Assembly: GCA_021777225.1 (NCBI GenBank)
Contig: JAJYDQ010000026.1
Coordinates: 1-49,224 of the forward strand
Source: Deltaproteobacteria bacterium
GTDB taxonomy: Bacteria > Desulfobacterota > Desulfomonilia > Desulfomonilales > Desulfomonilaceae
Direction of reading: 5' to 3'
DNA length: 49,224 bases
Part shown: in pieces, positions 28,081 through 38,021 of the stretch
Position numbering within the stretch: the stretch's first letter is position 1
Layout: every line of letters starts with the position of its first letter
Position numbers and translations under genes: made by a program
Notes under the pieces: model-generated
Told to the model about the DNA's origin: nothing
What the model saw: only the letters and a program-made list of their open reading frames with translations
Database searches by the model: none

Positions 28081-29079
28081 TCAGACTTGAGTCTCGCTTT
28101 GGTTAGATAAAGGCCTGAAACGAACGTAGCAACTTGGACATCTTGCGGATCGCGCGGAAACATGATGCCTGCATTTCCAGCAGAATCTGGGAGTTTCCTT
28201 GTCGAGTTCATCCAGTTCAATCCCACACCGTGGACATCTTCTGGCAGATTCAGGGGCAAAAGCCTCGCAACCGGGGCAAATTATCAACAGCGCGTTTCCA
28301 AGATCCAGGTAAGGGGACAGTTTACGCAAGTTGTTGGCCAGCACTACCACTATCCCCAGCATCAGACCCAGAAATGGGACAAGGGTAATTACAGCCTGAC
28401 GAGGGGCAAATACTACAATCATGTTGTACATGCCGTGAAAGAGGGCCGACAAAATGAAGCCTCTTGCGACCGTCGATATTTCACCTGAATGAACAAATCG
28501 GGCCACTCCCAGCGAATAGCCCCAAAACGCTGAGAACAGAAGGTGGGCAGGAGTAGCGTAAAGCAGTCTTGACCATATAATGGAAGGCCCCAGTCTCAAT
28601 ATGTAGACAGCGTTTTCTACCACCACAAAACCCAAGGCCGCAGTGAACGCGTATGTCAGCCCATCTATTGGGGAGCGAAAATCAGATCGCCTGTATGCGC
28701 CAATCCAAACCGCCAAAAGTTTGCAAAACTCTTCCGCTGGGGCAATCATCAGAAAACTGGTCGTCAATGACTCTTCAATCGTCGGCTTGTTTATGGTGGC
28801 GTCCAGAACATGTTCCAACAAAGCCGTTGGGATAGTAAAAGTCGCAGCCCACACGAAGACGCGGAATATACTTTCGAAGGATTGTGTCTCATCCCGATTG
28901 GATATGAAACACCGGGATAGCCACAGGATCCCTGGAGCTACACCAAGCAGGACGTATAAGAATTCTATCGGCACGGTCCTCGTTTGACTTTCTCTGCGTG
29001 ACCGTATATCACGGATTTTGGAAGTCGCCAAGGCGCATCTCTCATATGGAGACCTCAGTTGACGCCCTATGTAGAACAC
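28081..29079 (-). CDS. PrsW-family membrane protease with C-terminal zinc ribbons
   Basis: 332 residues. PrsW signatures are clear: [14 protein letters not shown] (metal-site EExxK), [13 protein letters not shown] and [16 protein letters not shown], spread over several membrane helices; the family cleaves anti-sigma factors or other membrane proteins. The C-terminal ~60 residues form two zinc-ribbon-like units ([19 protein letters not shown] and [18 protein letters not shown]). The start is uncertain: the long frame begins with GTG 29079 and would overlap the divergent ABC gene; GTG 28974, right before the first membrane helix, is an alternative. Substrate unknown. Confidence 0.75.
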
Positions 29080-30075
29080 CTTTCACAAACGTTTAATGCT
29101 TCTGACGAACTCGTTCGTTTGGACCATGTTGTCAAGAACTTCCGTTCTGGTCAAACTTTCTTTCGCGGCAGAACTTTACTGGTAAGAGCTGTAGATGACG
29201 TAGATATGACAATCAACAGGGGGGAAACGCTTGGTCTGGTTGGAGAATCCGGATGCGGAAAAACTACCCTGGGAAAGCTTGTTCTGAGGCTGGAAAGGCC
29301 CAATGCCGGTCGCATTTGGTTTGAAGGCAGGGATATAGCCAAAATGACGGGCCACGAGATGAAGCAGATCAGAAGGAAAATGCAGGTCATTTTCCAGGAC
29401 CCATATTCTTCCCTCAATCCGCGTCGCACTATCAAGAGCGCCATAATGGAGCCTTTGACGATTCACCATATTGGATCTCGCGCAGATAGGGTAAACCGAG
29501 TAGCGGAACTCATGGAAGAAGTCGGTCTACGGCCCGAATTTGCCGAAAGGTATCCTCATGAGTTTTCGGGAGGCCAGCGCCAAAGGATTGGGATAGCTCG
29601 GGCCCTTGCATTAAATCCCAGCCTCATAGTGGCCGATGAACCCGTTTCTGCGCTAGACGTGTCTATCCGTTCCCAAGTCCTCAATCTTATGGAAGATCTG
29701 CAGGCCAAGTACAATCTGACATATCTTTTCGTGTCCCATGACCTTTCAGTCGTTGAGCACATTTCTGATCGTGTGGCTGTTATGTATCTCGGGAAAATTG
29801 TTGAGATCGGTCCAAAGAATGTGATTTACGAAAATACTTTACACCCGTACACGGAAGCCCTTCTGAGCGCGGCGCCGATTCCTGACCCTGAAATCAAACG
29901 GCACAGGATAATCCTGGAGGGAGACGTTCCAAGCCCGATCAATCCTCCGTCAGGCTGTGGATTCCATCCTCGCTGTTGGCTTAGAATACCCGTTTGTTCT
30001 GAACAAGCTCCAGAGTTAAGGGACATGGGATCAGGGCACAGCGCGGCCTGTCACGTCAGGGCCCCTGCCACATAG
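29059..30075 (+). CDS. Peptide ABC transporter ATP-binding protein (DppF/OppF type)
   Basis: 338 residues with a complete ABC ATPase: Walker [12 protein letters not shown]-loop QDPYSSLNP, signature [15 protein letters not shown], Walker [13 protein letters not shown] and switch His in [10 protein letters not shown]. The C-terminal oligopeptide-transporter extension is present ([30 protein letters not shown]). In normal operons it follows DppB, C and D; here none of these neighbours exist, so it is an orphan ATPase or serves a transporter elsewhere. TTG start with GGAG seven bases upstream. Confidence 0.88.
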
Positions 30076-30125
30076 CTTCAACGCCTCAATAATTCATGGG
30101 GTTTCAGCCTTTCCCAAAAACACAT

Positions 30126-30441
30126 TTATCAACAGATGTTTATAACTATCCCCCTCATAACAAAGGGTATTTAGAGTATCCTTTATATTACAACGCGTTA
30201 CGATAACTATTTGATATCATGTAGCTTATTCATCTGTCCAAATTTGCGCGGATTGAGTGATGTTGTCTTGATTGGCGAAATGCTAGAAGTTATCAACAGG
30301 ATTACTCACGAGTTATCAACAACGTCTGTGGACAGACGGTCGCAGGTTAATGGTATTACTTGCAAAACACTCTGAAATGTGGTCTTGATAACTGCCATCG
30401 AGTTTTTCGGGCATTGATAGCGATGAAATATTTTATCAACA
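30126..30441. repeat. Four identical DnaA-box-like nonamers
   Basis: TTATCAACA occurs on the plus strand at 30126-30134, 30290-30298, 30313-30321 and 30433-30441, all in the 381-base AT-rich gap before cdaA; TGTGGACAG (30327-30335) is a further two-mismatch match on the opposite strand. The nonamer differs from the DnaA consensus TTATCCACA at one base. A regulatory or replication-initiation role is possible. No replication gene flanks it. Otherwise no gene is seen in 30076-30456. Confidence 0.5.
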
Positions 30442-30456
30442 TTTCTTGAGGCATAG

Positions 30457-31896
30457 ATGCTGTTCATAAAGGAACTGGTCCTTTCGATAAGTATCATCAA
30501 CCTTATAGATATAGGTTTGATCGCGTTCCTGTTTTATTTTGTCGCGATGTGGTTCAAGGGCACAAGGTCTTTCCAGATCCTTGTTACGCTCATTGGAACG
30601 GGAATATTTTATTTCTTGGCCACCAAGTTGGGTTTAATACTGACTTCTCTTTTGTTTCAGTATGTTTGGGCTGCGATAATAATTGTCCTCGTTATAGTAT
30701 TTCAGCCTGAAATTCGACAAATGCTCGATCGTGCGTCTCCTATAAGGCACTGGAGGAACCGCCAGTATCAAAGCGCTGATTCGGGCGTTGTCGATGAGAT
30801 TGTCAGCGCGGTAACAGAACTGGCCCGCCTAAGGACGGGAGCGCTGCTTGTTTTTCAGCGTCTAGACGGCTTGGATCACCTTATAGTAAAAGGCAAGGAA
30901 TTGGACAGCGCCCTGTCTACTGAGTTGTTACAGGCCATTTTTCAGAAAAATTCGCCTCTCCACGATGGGGCGGCTTTAATATACAGAGATCGAATAAAGG
31001 CTGCAGCGTGCATTCTTCCTTTGTCTCGGGACGAGGATCTCAGTTCTAAATACGGGACTCGACATCGTGCGGCATTAGGGATTTGCGAAAGAACAGACGC
31101 TATTTGCGTCGTGGTCTCTGAAGAACGCGGTGAGGTTTCTCTGGTTGAGGGTTCGGAGATCACTCATTTCAAGCAACGTAGCGAGTTTAGGGCCGCCATT
31201 GAGAAGCGCCTTTCTAACCACAAATCAAATGAGGGCGGTGAACCTTCCCACGACTGGGGCGCTATAATTTGGTCAAATTGGCGCCTGAAACTGCTAGCTT
31301 TGACGACTTCCATTTTCATATGGTTTTTGATAGTTGGTCCGCAGCGTTCTGAAATTGGTATTTCCGTTCCCATACAGTATACTAATCTTCCAGCGTCTAT
31401 GGAGATTGTCGGTCCATGGATGGACAGAATAGATGTTCGCGCAAAAGGATCTGCGTCTGGTTTGGAAAACTTGAATCCCGGCTCGGTCAGGGCGGTCGTG
31501 GACCTTGGCAAGGTGGTTCCCGGTCTCAACTTTTTCAGGCTGACTCCCAATAGCCTTCAGGTACCTCCGGGAATAACAATTTCCCAGATCAGGCCTTCAG
31601 ACCTTCAGCTCAACGTAGACGCCGCATCAGTAAAGGTTTTTAAGGTTGTTCCCACAATAGTGGGAGCGCTACCGGATAGGACTAAAATTGTTGTCTCCCC
31701 CTCTGACGTCAAGATTCGGGCTTCGCAGGGAGACCTTAAAAAACTCACTTCAGTTACCACAGACCCTGTAAATATTTCAGAATTGGCGCTCAAACAGAAA
31801 ATTAAGGTCCCTGTGGTAGTAAAGCCCGAAGGCCTACGGATCGATTCAATCGAGCCTATTCAAGTAACAGTAATTTTTGAGACGGAAAATCCGTGA
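30457..31896 (+). CDS. cdaA: Diadenylate cyclase CdaA fused to YbbR domains
   Basis: 479 residues. N-terminal part: three membrane helices (about 12-80), then a DAC domain (about 85-240) with the catalytic motifs SPLHDGA (DGA at 170-172) and TRHRAA (RHR at 202-204), making c-di-AMP from two ATP. After a linker, a further membrane helix (about 278-293) leads to YbbR-like repeats (GISVPIQYTNLPASMEIVG onward), which in Firmicutes form a separate regulator, CdaR. Fusing enzyme and regulator in one chain places the YbbR part outside the membrane. ATG with GAGG six bases upstream. The next gene overlaps its stop by four bases. Confidence 0.9.
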   Translation: MLFIKELVLSISIINLIDIGLIAFLFYFVAMWFKGTRSFQILVTLIGTGIFYFLATKLGLILTSLLFQYVWAAIIIVLVIVFQPEIRQMLDRASPIRHWRNRQYQSADSGVVDEIVSAVTELARLRTGALLVFQRLDGLDHLIVKGKELDSALSTELLQAIFQKNSPLHDGAALIYRDRIKAAACILPLSRDEDLSSKYGTRHRAALGICERTDAICVVVSEERGEVSLVEGSEITHFKQRSEFRAAIEKRLSNHKSNEGGEPSHDWGAIIWSNWRLKLLALTTSIFIWFLIVGPQRSEIGISVPIQYTNLPASMEIVGPWMDRIDVRAKGSASGLENLNPGSVRAVVDLGKVVPGLNFFRLTPNSLQVPPGITISQIRPSDLQLNVDAASVKVFKVVPTIVGALPDRTKIVVSPSDVKIRASQGDLKKLTSVTTDPVNISELALKQKIKVPVVVKPEGLRIDSIEPIQVTVIFETENP

Positions 31897-33377
31897 AAAA
31901 CAGCGTTACATCATCTACAAGTTTCAGCCCTGACCTGGTTCATCCCTTAAATGCTCTGGTTTCGGCCGCTGCGGACCCACTGAATGCCTTTACGATCGCA
32001 ATCTATCTTAAATCGGCTGTTGACCGCTCATTCCGGTTGATCTCGCACCGAACCTTGAGCAAGCATTTTGTTTTCGATGTTCCGTTATCTTTAGAGCGAA
32101 GCAAGATTGCCGGTTTCTTCAGAAAAGGGTCGATTAGCCACGAGACACACGCCGCTGTATCTCCACTTGCCCTTGAACTCTATACAAGACCTGAGCCCGT
32201 TCTCGCTATGCTTATAGCACCCATTGGAGACCGTGCCTTGCTGGTAGTGGATACAACGGAATCCCCGTCATTTCAGCCGTCCCAGATAAGATTTGTTCAG
32301 GGGCTGGTTTCAGCAATTGAGGGAATCCTTACCCTGGCGACTACGTCTGAAGGAATGGAGACATCAAGGTCAGAGTTTTCCACGATCGCTGAACTGCTCA
32401 ACGAGTATCGCCTTGCAGTTAATATCTCAGATACCTTTTTCGACGGGATGGTGTCATCCCTGGCAAACAAAGCACGGTTCGACGGGGCCCTGGTCGCTAC
32501 GGTATCCACTGCTTCCATGTCGTGCCGCATAAGATCAGTAGCCGGGTTCTCCAAGTCTTTGAACAAAGGGCGCATCATCAAGTTGCGTCCAGGTTGGGCC
32601 AAGTGGTCGATTGAACGCCTTCAATCGGTGATTATGGGGAGCCCAAAGGCTGGCGAGGCCCTTATTCCCATCTTCCACACGGGTGAAGCCCTCGGGTTTC
32701 CTGTTAAGAGCGCTGTTATCATTCCATGGACAAGGGACCATGGGATAGATGGGTTCCTATTGTTAGCCTCCCGCAAGGAAGACCACTCTCTTGAGAACGA
32801 TCGCAAAACATGGGAATTCCTGGGGGCGATCCTAGCAATAGTCCGCCGAAACGTGGTTAATGAAAAGCTGCTTAAAGCAGTGAGACTTTACGACGGCGAA
32901 TCCGGTCTTATGAACGAGAGTTTTTTCAGGGCCCAAACTGGGATTAAATTTATGCAGGCGCTTTCGGAAAGATCTCCCTGTGTCCTGATATTGGTCGAGA
33001 TCGAAAATATTGATTCTATCTATCTGCAACATGACATCTCAAGGATCAAGAGATTCCTGACAATTTTTACCGAACGACTCCTGACCCTTAACAAAAGCGG
33101 TTCTATTGTTGGAAAGTTTCGCACAGGGGGCTTCGGCGCGTTTATGGAGAACGTTCCCATGGAGGATGCGACCAGTATGATTCGAAGGGTAATGGGGTTG
33201 TTCAGTATCGATATTACCCATGTCGACGGGGTAGAGATAAGCCATTCCGTAAGGGTCGGATGGTGTCATTACCCGACTGAATGTTCAACTTTTGAAGACC
33301 TCTGGCGTCAAGCGCTCGCAAGACTAACCAAGAGCAAACCCAATACACAACATTCGCCCGGGTGGTCCAACATGTAG
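31893..33377 (+). CDS. GAF-like and degenerate GGDEF domain protein
   Basis: 494 residues. Two GAF-like regions (about 10-150 and 165-325) precede a GGDEF-like domain (about 330-485) that starts YDGESGLMNESFF, the usual entry to such domains. The catalytic GGDEF is TGGFGAF (411-417), so the metal-binding Asp/Glu are lost and diguanylate synthesis is not expected. It may still bind GTP or a partner. GTG start overlapping the cdaA stop (GTGA), so the two proteins are translationally coupled and probably stoichiometric. A role as c-di-AMP synthase regulator is inference; GAF assignments are by length and secondary-structure impression. Confidence 0.65.
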   Translation: MKNSVTSSTSFSPDLVHPLNALVSAAADPLNAFTIAIYLKSAVDRSFRLISHRTLSKHFVFDVPLSLERSKIAGFFRKGSISHETHAAVSPLALELYTRPEPVLAMLIAPIGDRALLVVDTTESPSFQPSQIRFVQGLVSAIEGILTLATTSEGMETSRSEFSTIAELLNEYRLAVNISDTFFDGMVSSLANKARFDGALVATVSTASMSCRIRSVAGFSKSLNKGRIIKLRPGWAKWSIERLQSVIMGSPKAGEALIPIFHTGEALGFPVKSAVIIPWTRDHGIDGFLLLASRKEDHSLENDRKTWEFLGAILAIVRRNVVNEKLLKAVRLYDGESGLMNESFFRAQTGIKFMQALSERSPCVLILVEIENIDSIYLQHDISRIKRFLTIFTERLLTLNKSGSIVGKFRTGGFGAFMENVPMEDATSMIRRVMGLFSIDITHVDGVEISHSVRVGWCHYPTECSTFEDLWRQALARLTKSKPNTQHSPGWSNM

Positions 33378-33501
33378 ACGGTGAGACGTTAGGACGCGAC
33401 CTTTCGTGTCGACCTTTGTGAGCGCTGTCTCTGTGCTTAATGTTTGAGCTATCTTTCTTATCGTTGGAATCACAACAGGGTCATAGAGAGGACATTTTTC
33501 G

Positions 33502-34224
33502 ATGATCATTATTGATGATCCATGGAAGGAATTACGTAGTTCCTGCTTCGGGAATGTAGAACCGGAAATTATTCTTGAAGCTGTGACTGTACCGTTGAAA
33601 AACCTGAGTCCACATATTGAGAACAGCGAACTGTGGGAGACAATAGAAACCATCCCCGCCTGGTCTGCCGCTATCAGTTACGGAAGCAGGGAAAAGATGG
33701 CTGACGACATGGAACGCAAAAGATCTTTGAACAGAAAACTTATTGGTTTGGGCCATATGACGCCGCTTGAATCACTTCAGTTCAATTTTCGCGTCACCGG
33801 AATTTCCAAGGCATGCGGCGCTCAGATGTCGCGCCACAGAATAGGACAGGGACATGTCAGTTCAAGCAGACGCTTCCAGGCCCAAGGGGCGGCTTTCGTC
33901 TATCCCCTCCTGAGTTACATAACCGAGGAGGCCGACGCAAAAGACGCCCTGATGAAGTTGAGCAGCGCCAATAAAAAAGCTTATGAGATTTATGAAGACC
34001 TGAGGAATTCGAATAAGCTGCGCAAAGAGGACGCCAGGAGGGCAATACCCGTAGCGTCTTCCCAAGAAAGAGTCTGGTGGATTAACGCTCGGGCGCTGCG
34101 TGATTTCCTCCGCTTAAGACTACCCAAAGACGCCGAATGGGAGATTCGCAGAATTGCCGTCATGCTTTATAACCTGGTTTTAGAGGCTACCCCTTCCCTT
34201 TTTGAGGACATGGTCATCAAGTAG
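33502..34224 (+). CDS. thyX: Flavin-dependent thymidylate synthase ThyX
   Basis: 240 residues making dTMP from dUMP with FAD and methylene-tetrahydrofolate. Signatures: GHMTPLESLQFNFRVTGISK, the ThyX motif RHRIGQGHVSSSRRF (RHR-x7-S; the consensus Tyr at the end is Phe) and the C-terminal RALRDFLRLRL plus EWEIRRIA. ATG with GAGAGGA upstream. Its last 58 bases overlap tail-to-tail with the cobK gene on the other strand. Confidence 0.88.
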   Translation: MIIIDDPWKELRSSCFGNVEPEIILEAVTVPLKNLSPHIENSELWETIETIPAWSAAISYGSREKMADDMERKRSLNRKLIGLGHMTPLESLQFNFRVTGISKACGAQMSRHRIGQGHVSSSRRFQAQGAAFVYPLLSYITEEADAKDALMKLSSANKKAYEIYEDLRNSNKLRKEDARRAIPVASSQERVWWINARALRDFLRLRLPKDAEWEIRRIAVMLYNLVLEATPSLFEDMVIK

Positions 34225-34973
34225 TCTTTTAAGGCGTTGACAAGCTCCATTGGTTCGGAGAACGACGGCGTCTCATCGGATGGCGGTCTCTGAACCACTA
34301 CTATTTTACATCTTTGATCCAATGCTGCTTGAATCTTATCCTCCGTTCCACCCCTGGTTCCGCTGTCTTTGGTGACCAGGATCCTAACGCCAAACTCTTT
34401 TATTGCGGCGACGTTGTCCTCATACGAAAAAGGCCCCTGCCCTATTATCCAATTTTCCTCGGGTATTCCCAGACCTTTCAGAATTTTTATCGAATCCTTA
34501 TTGGGGAGTGCCCTCACAATCAATCGGGGTCTATTCCAACGACACATGGAGACATAGGTCGCAAGGTTTCTAATACCGGTGGCCACCAGGATTGTTCCGC
34601 CAAGGGATACAGCTTTACGGGCCGCTTCCTCATGATTTTCAGCGAAGATAATGTTTGGATGCTGTTTGACTACGGTTTTTCTGTTTAACCTGAAGTATCG
34701 GGCTCCGGTTGCCCGTGAGGCCGCTAATGCGTTTCGAGTGACTTCAACTGCGTACGGATGAGTGGCGTCTATTATAACATTTGTGTTGTCTTTGGAAATT
34801 GACTTTCCCATGCCCGCCTGATCAAGTGGCCCCCTTCTTATTACCACCAAAGACGATTCAGGGAGATCCATAGGAGTGTCCGTGGCCATGGAAAAAATCA
34901 TGGGCAATCCTTCATTTACCAGAAGCCTTGCCACTTCAATTGAATCCGAGGTTCCACCGAGGAGCAATATCAT
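34167..34973 (-). CDS. cbiJ: Precorrin-6A reductase CobK/CbiJ
   Basis: 268 residues; MILLLGGTSDSIEVARLLV at the start (NAD(P)H-binding), DATHPYAVEVTRNALAASRA, ILVTKDSGTRGG in the C-terminal half, all typical for the reductase of the corrin macrocycle. It belongs to cobalamin synthesis together with cbiE and cbiB upstream on the same strand. The last ~16 residues (after DYL) look like a read-through extension into the thyX overlap. Confidence 0.88.
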   Translation of the reverse strand: MILLLGGTSDSIEVARLLVNEGLPMIFSMATDTPMDLPESSLVVIRRGPLDQAGMGKSISKDNTNVIIDATHPYAVEVTRNALAASRATGARYFRLNRKTVVKQHPNIIFAENHEEAARKAVSLGGTILVATGIRNLATYVSMCRWNRPRLIVRALPNKDSIKILKGLGIPEENWIIGQGPFSYEDNVAAIKEFGVRILVTKDSGTRGGTEDKIQAALDQRCKIVVVQRPPSDETPSFSEPMELVNALKDYLMTMSSKREGVASKTRL

Positions 34974-36899: not shown

Positions 36900-38021
36900 G
36901 TGGAGTTTTACATCCTGGGGAAAACTAACAGCCAACCTAGAATTCAGCGATGGTCTGAAAAACTCACTGTCCATATCGATAGACTTGGAAGGGCTATCGG
37001 GTCTTTTCGGGACCGCGTCGGCTCCGAAATGGCTGTTGACCTTGGAACAACCAATACCAGGATGTACCTTCGTGGCCGGGGAATATTCGTGGATGAACCT
37101 TCCGTGCTCGCCACCGACTCGCTAAACGGCGAACCTCTCTCTGCCGGATCTAACGCAAGGAACCTAATTGGACGGTCTCCTGATTACGTAGCTCTTCACA
37201 AACCTTTATGCGCTGGAGCAATTGCAGACGCTGCACACACCGCTTTAATGCTACGCTATTTGATTGCCGGCGCCCGAAAAGGGAATTTTCCCAGATGGTA
37301 TAGAATGGCTGTCACTGCCCCCAGTTGTGGGACAAGGCTTGAAAGAAGGGCCATCATCGAAGCTGCTACGAAGTCAGGGGCTGCCAAAGTTCTTCTTGTT
37401 CCTACCTTAATCGCAGCAGCGATTGGGGTAGGCTACAAAATCAACTCACCCCGGGCTCGGATGCTGGTACTTCTCGGTGGCGGCGTTTGCGAGGTCGGGA
37501 TAGTAGGTCTGGGACACATTATTTATTCGGACGCGGCGCGTGTCGGCGGAGAAACTATTGATCACGCCATCTATGAATATCTTCTTCATCGTTACAACAT
37601 TCAGATCACTATGGAAATGGCTGAGAAAATCAAAGAAGAACTGGTATATGCTGAGAGTTCGGCCACTCCCCACGAAACTATGCGAGTCACTGGGAGAGAA
37701 GCCAGGAAAGGCGGTTTAAAGAGTATTGAGATGAGACCACCCGAAATTTCCAGGGCAGTCGAGACACCAATAAACTGTATAGTAGATTTGATTCAGGAAG
37801 CACTTGATAATTGCTCCCCCGCGGTTTTGTCAGACCTGGAAAACTTCCCTATTATTCTCTCAGGAGGGTTGTCCCTACTCCATGGGTTACCTGAGCTTAT
37901 AGTAAAAATGACTGGATTCAGGGTCGCTGTGGCTGCAAATCCTTCATATACAACGCTCAAAGGCTGTTCGGCGATTGTTGATGACCCAAAACAGCATATC
38001 TATTGTCTCACGCAGGCTTGA
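36900..38021 (+). CDS. MreB-like actin-family protein, divergent
   Basis: 373 residues with the actin/MreB fold motifs: phosphate-1 VDLGTTNTRMYLRGRGIFVDE (EPSV follows), a connecting segment APSCGTRLERRAIIEAA and GGGVCEVGIVGLGHI (phosphate-2). The phosphate-2 motif reads LVLLGGGVCE rather than VVDIGGGTTE, lacking the Asp, and the end (ANPSYTTLKGCSAIV) keeps only part of the adenosine motif, so ATP handling is probably altered. GTG 36900 gives a 43-residue N-terminal extension; ATG 37029 would start at MAVDLGTT. Divergent from cbiB; no mreC/D next to it. Confidence 0.7.
   Translation: MEFYILGKTNSQPRIQRWSEKLTVHIDRLGRAIGSFRDRVGSEMAVDLGTTNTRMYLRGRGIFVDEPSVLATDSLNGEPLSAGSNARNLIGRSPDYVALHKPLCAGAIADAAHTALMLRYLIAGARKGNFPRWYRMAVTAPSCGTRLERRAIIEAATKSGAAKVLLVPTLIAAAIGVGYKINSPRARMLVLLGGGVCEVGIVGLGHIIYSDAARVGGETIDHAIYEYLLHRYNIQITMEMAEKIKEELVYAESSATPHETMRVTGREARKGGLKSIEMRPPEISRAVETPINCIVDLIQEALDNCSPAVLSDLENFPIILSGGLSLLHGLPELIVKMTGFRVAVAANPSYTTLKGCSAIVDDPKQHIYCLTQA

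Follow-up and report, generated by a model that had tools for sequence, protein, structure and literature searches.

A tandem-GAF protein with a degenerate GGDEF domain, encoded in a conserved pair with a fused cdaA-ybbR gene in the Desulfomonilaceae and apparently derived from a family linked to a second MreB

c-di-AMP is associated with turgor and wall integrity, and in the Firmicutes its synthase, CdaA, is encoded in the cdaA-cdaR-glmM operon, in which a YbbR protein (CdaR) and a third, cytosolic product (GlmM) accompany the cyclase. CdaA is bound and controlled by both CdaR and GlmM, whose genes adjoin cdaA, and RadA, encoded beside disA, binds and inhibits the cyclase DisA (PMC8573169). 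The meaning of the CdaA-GlmM contact in Firmicutes is still called unclear (PMC10243994), and a functional link between c-di-AMP, MreB and the wall regulator GlmR is known in B. subtilis (PMC13046274). A degenerate GGDEF domain is also already known in c-di-AMP metabolism, from GdpP (PMC10243994), a PAS-degenerate GGDEF-DHH/DHHA1 protein that degrades c-di-AMP with its own DHH/DHHA1 domains.

The locus described here lies in a 49,224-nucleotide stretch of a deltaproteobacterial genome of the family Desulfomonilaceae (contig JAJYDQ010000026.1), the whole of which is referred to as the window. Its relevant features, all on the plus strand, are the following:

30457..31896, plus strand: cdaA-ybbR fusion, 479 aa, with TIGR00159, DAC and YbbR matches and hydrophobic stretches
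30805..31158, plus strand: DAC domain of CdaA (PF02457, E 5.2e-40), DGA and RHR motifs intact
31893..31896, plus strand: four-base overlap GTGA, made of the GAF-protein start (GTG, 31893-31895) and the cdaA-ybbR stop (TGA, 31894-31896)
31893..33377, plus strand: GAF-GAF-pseudo-GGDEF protein, GTG start, 494 aa, no membrane helix
31935..32348, plus strand: first GAF domain (GAF1), residues about 15-152, placed by the GAF profile in the ortholog of genome G007, the phylum alignment and the model
32415..32867, plus strand: second GAF domain (GAF2), residues about 175-325, placed by the GAF profile in the same ortholog and the model
32886..33344, plus strand: pseudo-GGDEF domain, residues about 332-484 (PF00990, 33 bits; nearest solved structures GGDEF, Z about 20)
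33120..33134, plus strand: RTGGF in place of the GGDEF catalytic motif, residues 410-414, from the alignment to 4urs and to orthologs
33502..34224, plus strand: thyX, the next gene on the strand, probably a neighbour outside the module
36900..38021, plus strand: diverged MreB paralogue of the MreB2 clade (PF06723, 281 bits; tree)

The first gene of the pair had been taken for a c-di-AMP synthase by the initial annotation, and rightly so, since its product matches TIGR00159 (CdaA) with 203.7 bits, above the cut-off of 188.8. What had been overlooked is that the same product also carries YbbR repeats (DAC 134 bits, YbbR 38.7 bits), so that CdaA and CdaR are here a single chain; certain streptococci are known to have such a fusion too (PMC10243994). 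Hydrophobic stretches at residues 1-90 and 275-295 frame the layout, in which membrane helices are followed by the DAC domain, another membrane helix (275-295) and the YbbR repeats; the DAC domain is predicted to be cytosolic, and the fused YbbR part would be outside. Because the DGA and RHR motifs are intact, CdaA-YbbR should be catalytically competent, and the gene evolves under constraint similar to that on its partner (dN/dS against G003, 0.047). The adjacency of cdaA to a YbbR protein that marks the Firmicutes operon is therefore found as a fusion. Unlike in that operon, the third gene here encodes the GAF-GAF-pseudo-GGDEF protein, and glmM is encoded elsewhere, on contig C131. The classic cdaA-cdaR-glmM operon is intact in G193, and the fused cdaA-ybbR genes of other families are followed by other, unrelated genes. 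CdaA was found in 16 of the 18 family genomes (the two without a DAC match are both draft assemblies) and a 7TMR-HDED protein, a c-di-AMP phosphodiesterase of PgpH type, in all 18, which points to a likely complete c-di-AMP cycle in the family. The c-di-AMP riboswitch RF00379 was not detected in these 18 genomes, nor was any Rfam family in the window.

The GGDEF and GAF make-up that had been proposed for the second gene holds, although by different routes for the two domain types. The only Pfam match of the window protein is GGDEF (PF00990, 33 bits, cut-off 23.8), with no direct match to GAF; the G007 ortholog matches GAF_2 and GAF at both N-terminal positions, and GAF is also matched in phylum homologs. 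Two AlphaFold models, from 10 sequences (pLDDT 75) and from 26 (pLDDT 82), give the order GAF, long helix, GAF, long helix, GGDEF, the relative placement of the domains being unreliable (pTM about 0.5). In structure comparison GGDEF domains come nearest (Z about 20, 2.3 A), together with GAF domains, and GAF-GGDEF phytochrome cyclases match the model across most of the chain. As modelled, the protein is made of two GAF folds and a GGDEF fold. It shares with the phytochrome-type diguanylate cyclases (5llw, 6et7) the fold order and the long helical linkers, but has neither the catalytic motif nor the chromophore domain. From GdpP it differs in having no enzyme domain and in being linked to synthesis: Pfam finds no DHH/DHHA1 or PAS domain in it and NCBIfam no DHH/DHHA1, nor any equivalog above cut-off. 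GAF1 is the domain best conserved across the phylum, with Y97, P110, D120 and F127 invariant in 50 sequences. Measured against G003, dN/dS is 0.047 for the whole protein, 0.088 for GAF1, 0.011 for GAF2 and 0.037 for the pseudo-GGDEF domain, and strong purifying selection acts on all three domains. Decay of the gene into a pseudogene was also considered; the low dN/dS, together with intact frames in 10 genomes, rules it out.

The four-base overlap with the cdaA stop had been noted from the window itself, and the conservation of the pair had been named as part of the test of the proposed coupling. In a profile search of 18 Desulfomonilaceae genomes, clear orthologs (at least 499 bits) were found in 10, the remaining genomes having only generic GAF/GGDEF proteins (83 bits at most). 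These orthologs span five genera and are 29-94% identical, and all ten start within an NTGA overlap with the upstream stop, even though their start codons vary (ATG, GTG, TTG). The full cdaA-ybbR gene is visible upstream in eight of them. As for the other two, the contig of G002 starts inside the upstream gene, and in G012 the pair is split between two contigs that have 39 YbbR residues in common at their ends, so the two genes are contiguous there as well. Conservation and tight coupling of the pair, beyond chance, are thereby confirmed. Nonetheless, a third of the family genomes (G009, G010, G011, G013, G014, G017) have cdaA-ybbR without the GAF protein, and CdaA therefore does not require it. 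Directly after the GAF gene, thyX is also found in G001, G003, G004, G006 and G012. Promoter and terminator scans at 29900-34300 gave no more than shuffled sequence, and no homolog of the GAF protein occurs in plasmid records. On the other side of the pair lie two divergent genes (28081-29079, 29059-30075), one for a PrsW-type intramembrane protease with zinc ribbons and one for an oligopeptide ABC ATPase; the former overlaps the start of the latter, and both are also present upstream of cdaA in several relatives.

Beyond the family, the relatives of this protein have a different neighbour, a link that the initial annotation had missed. Phylum homologs were gathered with a profile of the family's GAF proteins, which matches chiefly over the first GAF domains and reaches E 1e-35 in other families. 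Outside the window's family none of them lies near cdaA among the 67 genomes searched, so CdaA would not be the original partner of the GAF protein. Instead, mreB is directly downstream, on the same strand, of the tandem-GAF homolog in at least 45 of 63 genomes, the homologs being in many cases GAF-GAF only and in others GAF-GAF-pseudo-GGDEF; no mreB lies beside the homolog, within the stretches examined, in G077, G112, G144 and G266, all of one family. This tandem-GAF/second-mreB pair is seen throughout the phylum (L069, L061, L062, L076-L110), Geobacter-like genomes included. We use the name MreB2 for the paralogue in question, which is distinct from the canonical MreB. A tree of 82 MreB proteins (one FastTree run, midpoint root) places the GAF-linked MreBs in one group with those linked to cdaA in the window's family and separates this group from the canonical copies in the same genomes. 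The split has a support of 0.965 when the canonical side includes one long-branched extra copy and of 0.84 when it does not; the cdaA-linked MreBs are monophyletic (0.951). The GAF proteins of the family likewise form one clade (support 1.0), and that of the window is shown, as judged by sequence comparison, to descend from the mreB2-linked family. Two modules would then have been joined in the Desulfomonilaceae, in the order cdaA-ybbR, GAF-GAF-pseudo-GGDEF, mreB2. Another extra MreB of the family (G000:C149:63-1043, L116) is close to the canonical one (DLGTANSLVY) and arose separately, by duplication or acquisition.

E. coli, too, encodes a protein with a degenerate GGDEF domain immediately ahead of mreB: CsrD (YhdA), which has HRSDF for GGDEF. 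CsrD differs in its GGDEF-EAL architecture, its membrane helices and its lack of GAF domains, is annotated as a regulator of CsrB/CsrC decay and has no c-di-AMP link; the likeness is probably convergent. In the K-12 genome (L177:4545-7833) csrD immediately precedes mreBCD, which makes it an independent example of a dead GGDEF gene next to mreB.

Which of the two genomic partners does the GAF protein serve in the family? The order cdaA-ybbR, GAF gene, mreB2 is seen in G007. G010, G011, G014 and G017 lack the GAF gene and have mreB2 directly after cdaA-ybbR; in G011 (L045:2653-5123) mreB2 overlaps the cdaA-ybbR stop by four bases, coupling cdaA directly to the actin gene. Conversely, MreB2 was not found in G004 (99% complete), G012 (94%), G001 and G015, where the GAF protein is still behind cdaA. 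From these natural losses of mreB2 versus the GAF protein it follows that cdaA is the constant partner in the family and MreB2 the ancestral one. The window itself has its MreB2 gene 3.5 kb downstream of the GAF gene, with thyX and cobalamin genes between, and G006 is similar. Its ATP site is altered from VDIGGGTTEV to VLLGGGVCEV, at the same place as in the G006 ortholog (SLGGGICEV), and the product of 36900-38021, a fast-evolving third paralogue, is probably no normal ATPase.

The reading that we favour, with a probability of about 0.5, is that the GAF protein is a cytosolic, non-catalytic sensor or adaptor that regulates CdaA and ties c-di-AMP to wall growth. Having no membrane helix, it could reach the cytosolic DAC domain and act on it. 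Long helices connect the two GAF domains, which would bind either a partner or a small ligand or would sense the state of the wall; the pseudo-GGDEF domain would offer a dimerising or protein-binding surface, and an altered assembly of the DAC domains would raise or lower c-di-AMP. The protein has the operon place that GlmM has in the classic operon, and because of this place and of its descent from an MreB2-associated protein, the output would most likely tie c-di-AMP to wall growth of the MreB type. Binding to CdaA, the direction of the effect, the GAF ligand and the link to the wall are all parts that we infer. In favour of a regulator of CdaA are the pair and its overlap in all ten orthologs, the persistence of the association with cdaA after mreB2 loss (G004, G012, G001, G015), the purifying selection on every domain and the location of glmM on another contig; CdaR, GlmM and RadA are precedents of neighbour-encoded cyclase regulators, the DisA-RadA pair having another cyclase and an unrelated partner. 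Against it are the six family genomes with cdaA-ybbR and no GAF protein, and the fact that the protein is never beside cdaA in the other phylum families. Moreover, a translational overlap by itself means co-expression, not contact.

The alternative that survives best, possible but less probable, is that the GAF protein chiefly serves MreB2, as its regulator or scaffold. It would stay beside cdaA on account of shared wall or turgor homeostasis and be co-made with CdaA while having no direct contact with it. The homologs directly upstream of MreB2, with or without a pseudo-GGDEF domain, in at least 45 of 63 genomes agree with this, as do the gene order in G007 and the grouping of the family's MreB2 genes with the GAF-linked ones in one clade (support of the split from canonical MreB 0.84-0.97). 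It fits poorly with G004 and G012, which keep the GAF protein with cdaA and have no mreB2, and with the window's genus, whose MreB2 is 3.5 kb off and badly diverged at the ATP site. It is also possible, though less probable than not, that CdaA, the GAF-pseudo-GGDEF adaptor and MreB2 form one signalling module, in which c-di-AMP synthesis is set by the actin filament or by the state that it is in.

Simple hitch-hiking in the operon, in which a single event put the gene behind cdaA and chance kept it there, with no functional link, appears improbable: a single ancestral joining does explain all family members, which are one clade with support 1.0, but the NTGA overlap is kept across ATG, GTG and TTG starts and down to 29% identity, and persists while the flanking genes differ among genera.

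The remaining alternatives concern the GGDEF domain, for which the initial annotation had left a role as GTP or c-di-GMP receptor; such a receptor would pass its signal to CdaA. Aligned with 4urs, the T. maritima cyclase, the protein has I, D374, Y377 and L378 in place of the substrate-loop residues F, K, N and D. The guanine-contact Asn is an invariant Y377, the second guanine-contact Asp is K386 (K, R or N in orthologs), and the metal Asp is not kept, the variable E369 being at its place. The signature had been given as TGGFGAF, which is indeed present at residues 411-417, but the GGDEF pentapeptide itself aligns with RTGGF (410-414); this position reads (R/M/S)TG(G/C)(F/L) in all orthologs. 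Across the phylum-wide alignment GG[DE]EF is kept in none of the 33 GGDEF-bearing sequences, and an RxxD I-site five residues before the motif exists neither in the window protein (LNKSGSIVGKF there) nor in the orthologs. With D374, Y377, L378, G407, K408, T411 and G412 invariant in the ten orthologs, a new conserved surface has replaced the active site, and a dead GGDEF domain is the rule in this family rather than a sign of decay. That the protein is no normal cyclase, as had been proposed, agrees with the replacement of catalytic, guanine-contact and metal residues in all orthologs, and on these residues the domain is predicted to be catalytically dead. The receptor role does not fare as well. 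The GGDEF fold is retained, c-di-GMP could be supplied by two ordinary GGDEF proteins that the genome encodes elsewhere, and the degenerate GGDEF of GdpP keeps a weak ATPase activity (PMC10243994); but with the binding residues replaced, no RxxD I-site upstream and the motif in no family member, such a receptor is even less probable than hitch-hiking. The last reading, an active cyclase with c-di-GMP or a hybrid dinucleotide as its product, has the fold alone in its favour; the replacements in all orthologs refute it at the level of sequence and leave it a negligible chance.

The arrangement had been presented as one not known to be described, and this stands for the tight pairing with c-di-AMP synthesis, not for the mere presence of a degenerate GGDEF domain in c-di-AMP metabolism, for which GdpP is the precedent. 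In the open-licence literature we found neither cdaA in an operon with mreB nor an arrangement of MreB with GAF domains in Geobacter, and the tandem-GAF/pseudo-GGDEF family, its link to a second MreB and its joining to cdaA-ybbR seem to have no description there. Even in the Firmicutes, which are well studied, it is not settled how c-di-AMP synthesis is matched to the growth of the wall; here, evolution has placed in GlmM's operon position a different, sensor-like protein from an MreB-linked family. The gene pairs, and the genomes that have naturally lost either mreB2 or the GAF protein, provide a simple set that is open to testing, and the homologs point to an uncharacterised, phylum-wide partner of the second MreB. 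For the Desulfomonilaceae, these observations suggest a link between cell shape and c-di-AMP through the GAF protein, apparently undescribed, and if CdaA, the adaptor and MreB2 did act as one module, this would be a physical link between the cell-shape machinery and turgor control of a kind not described so far.
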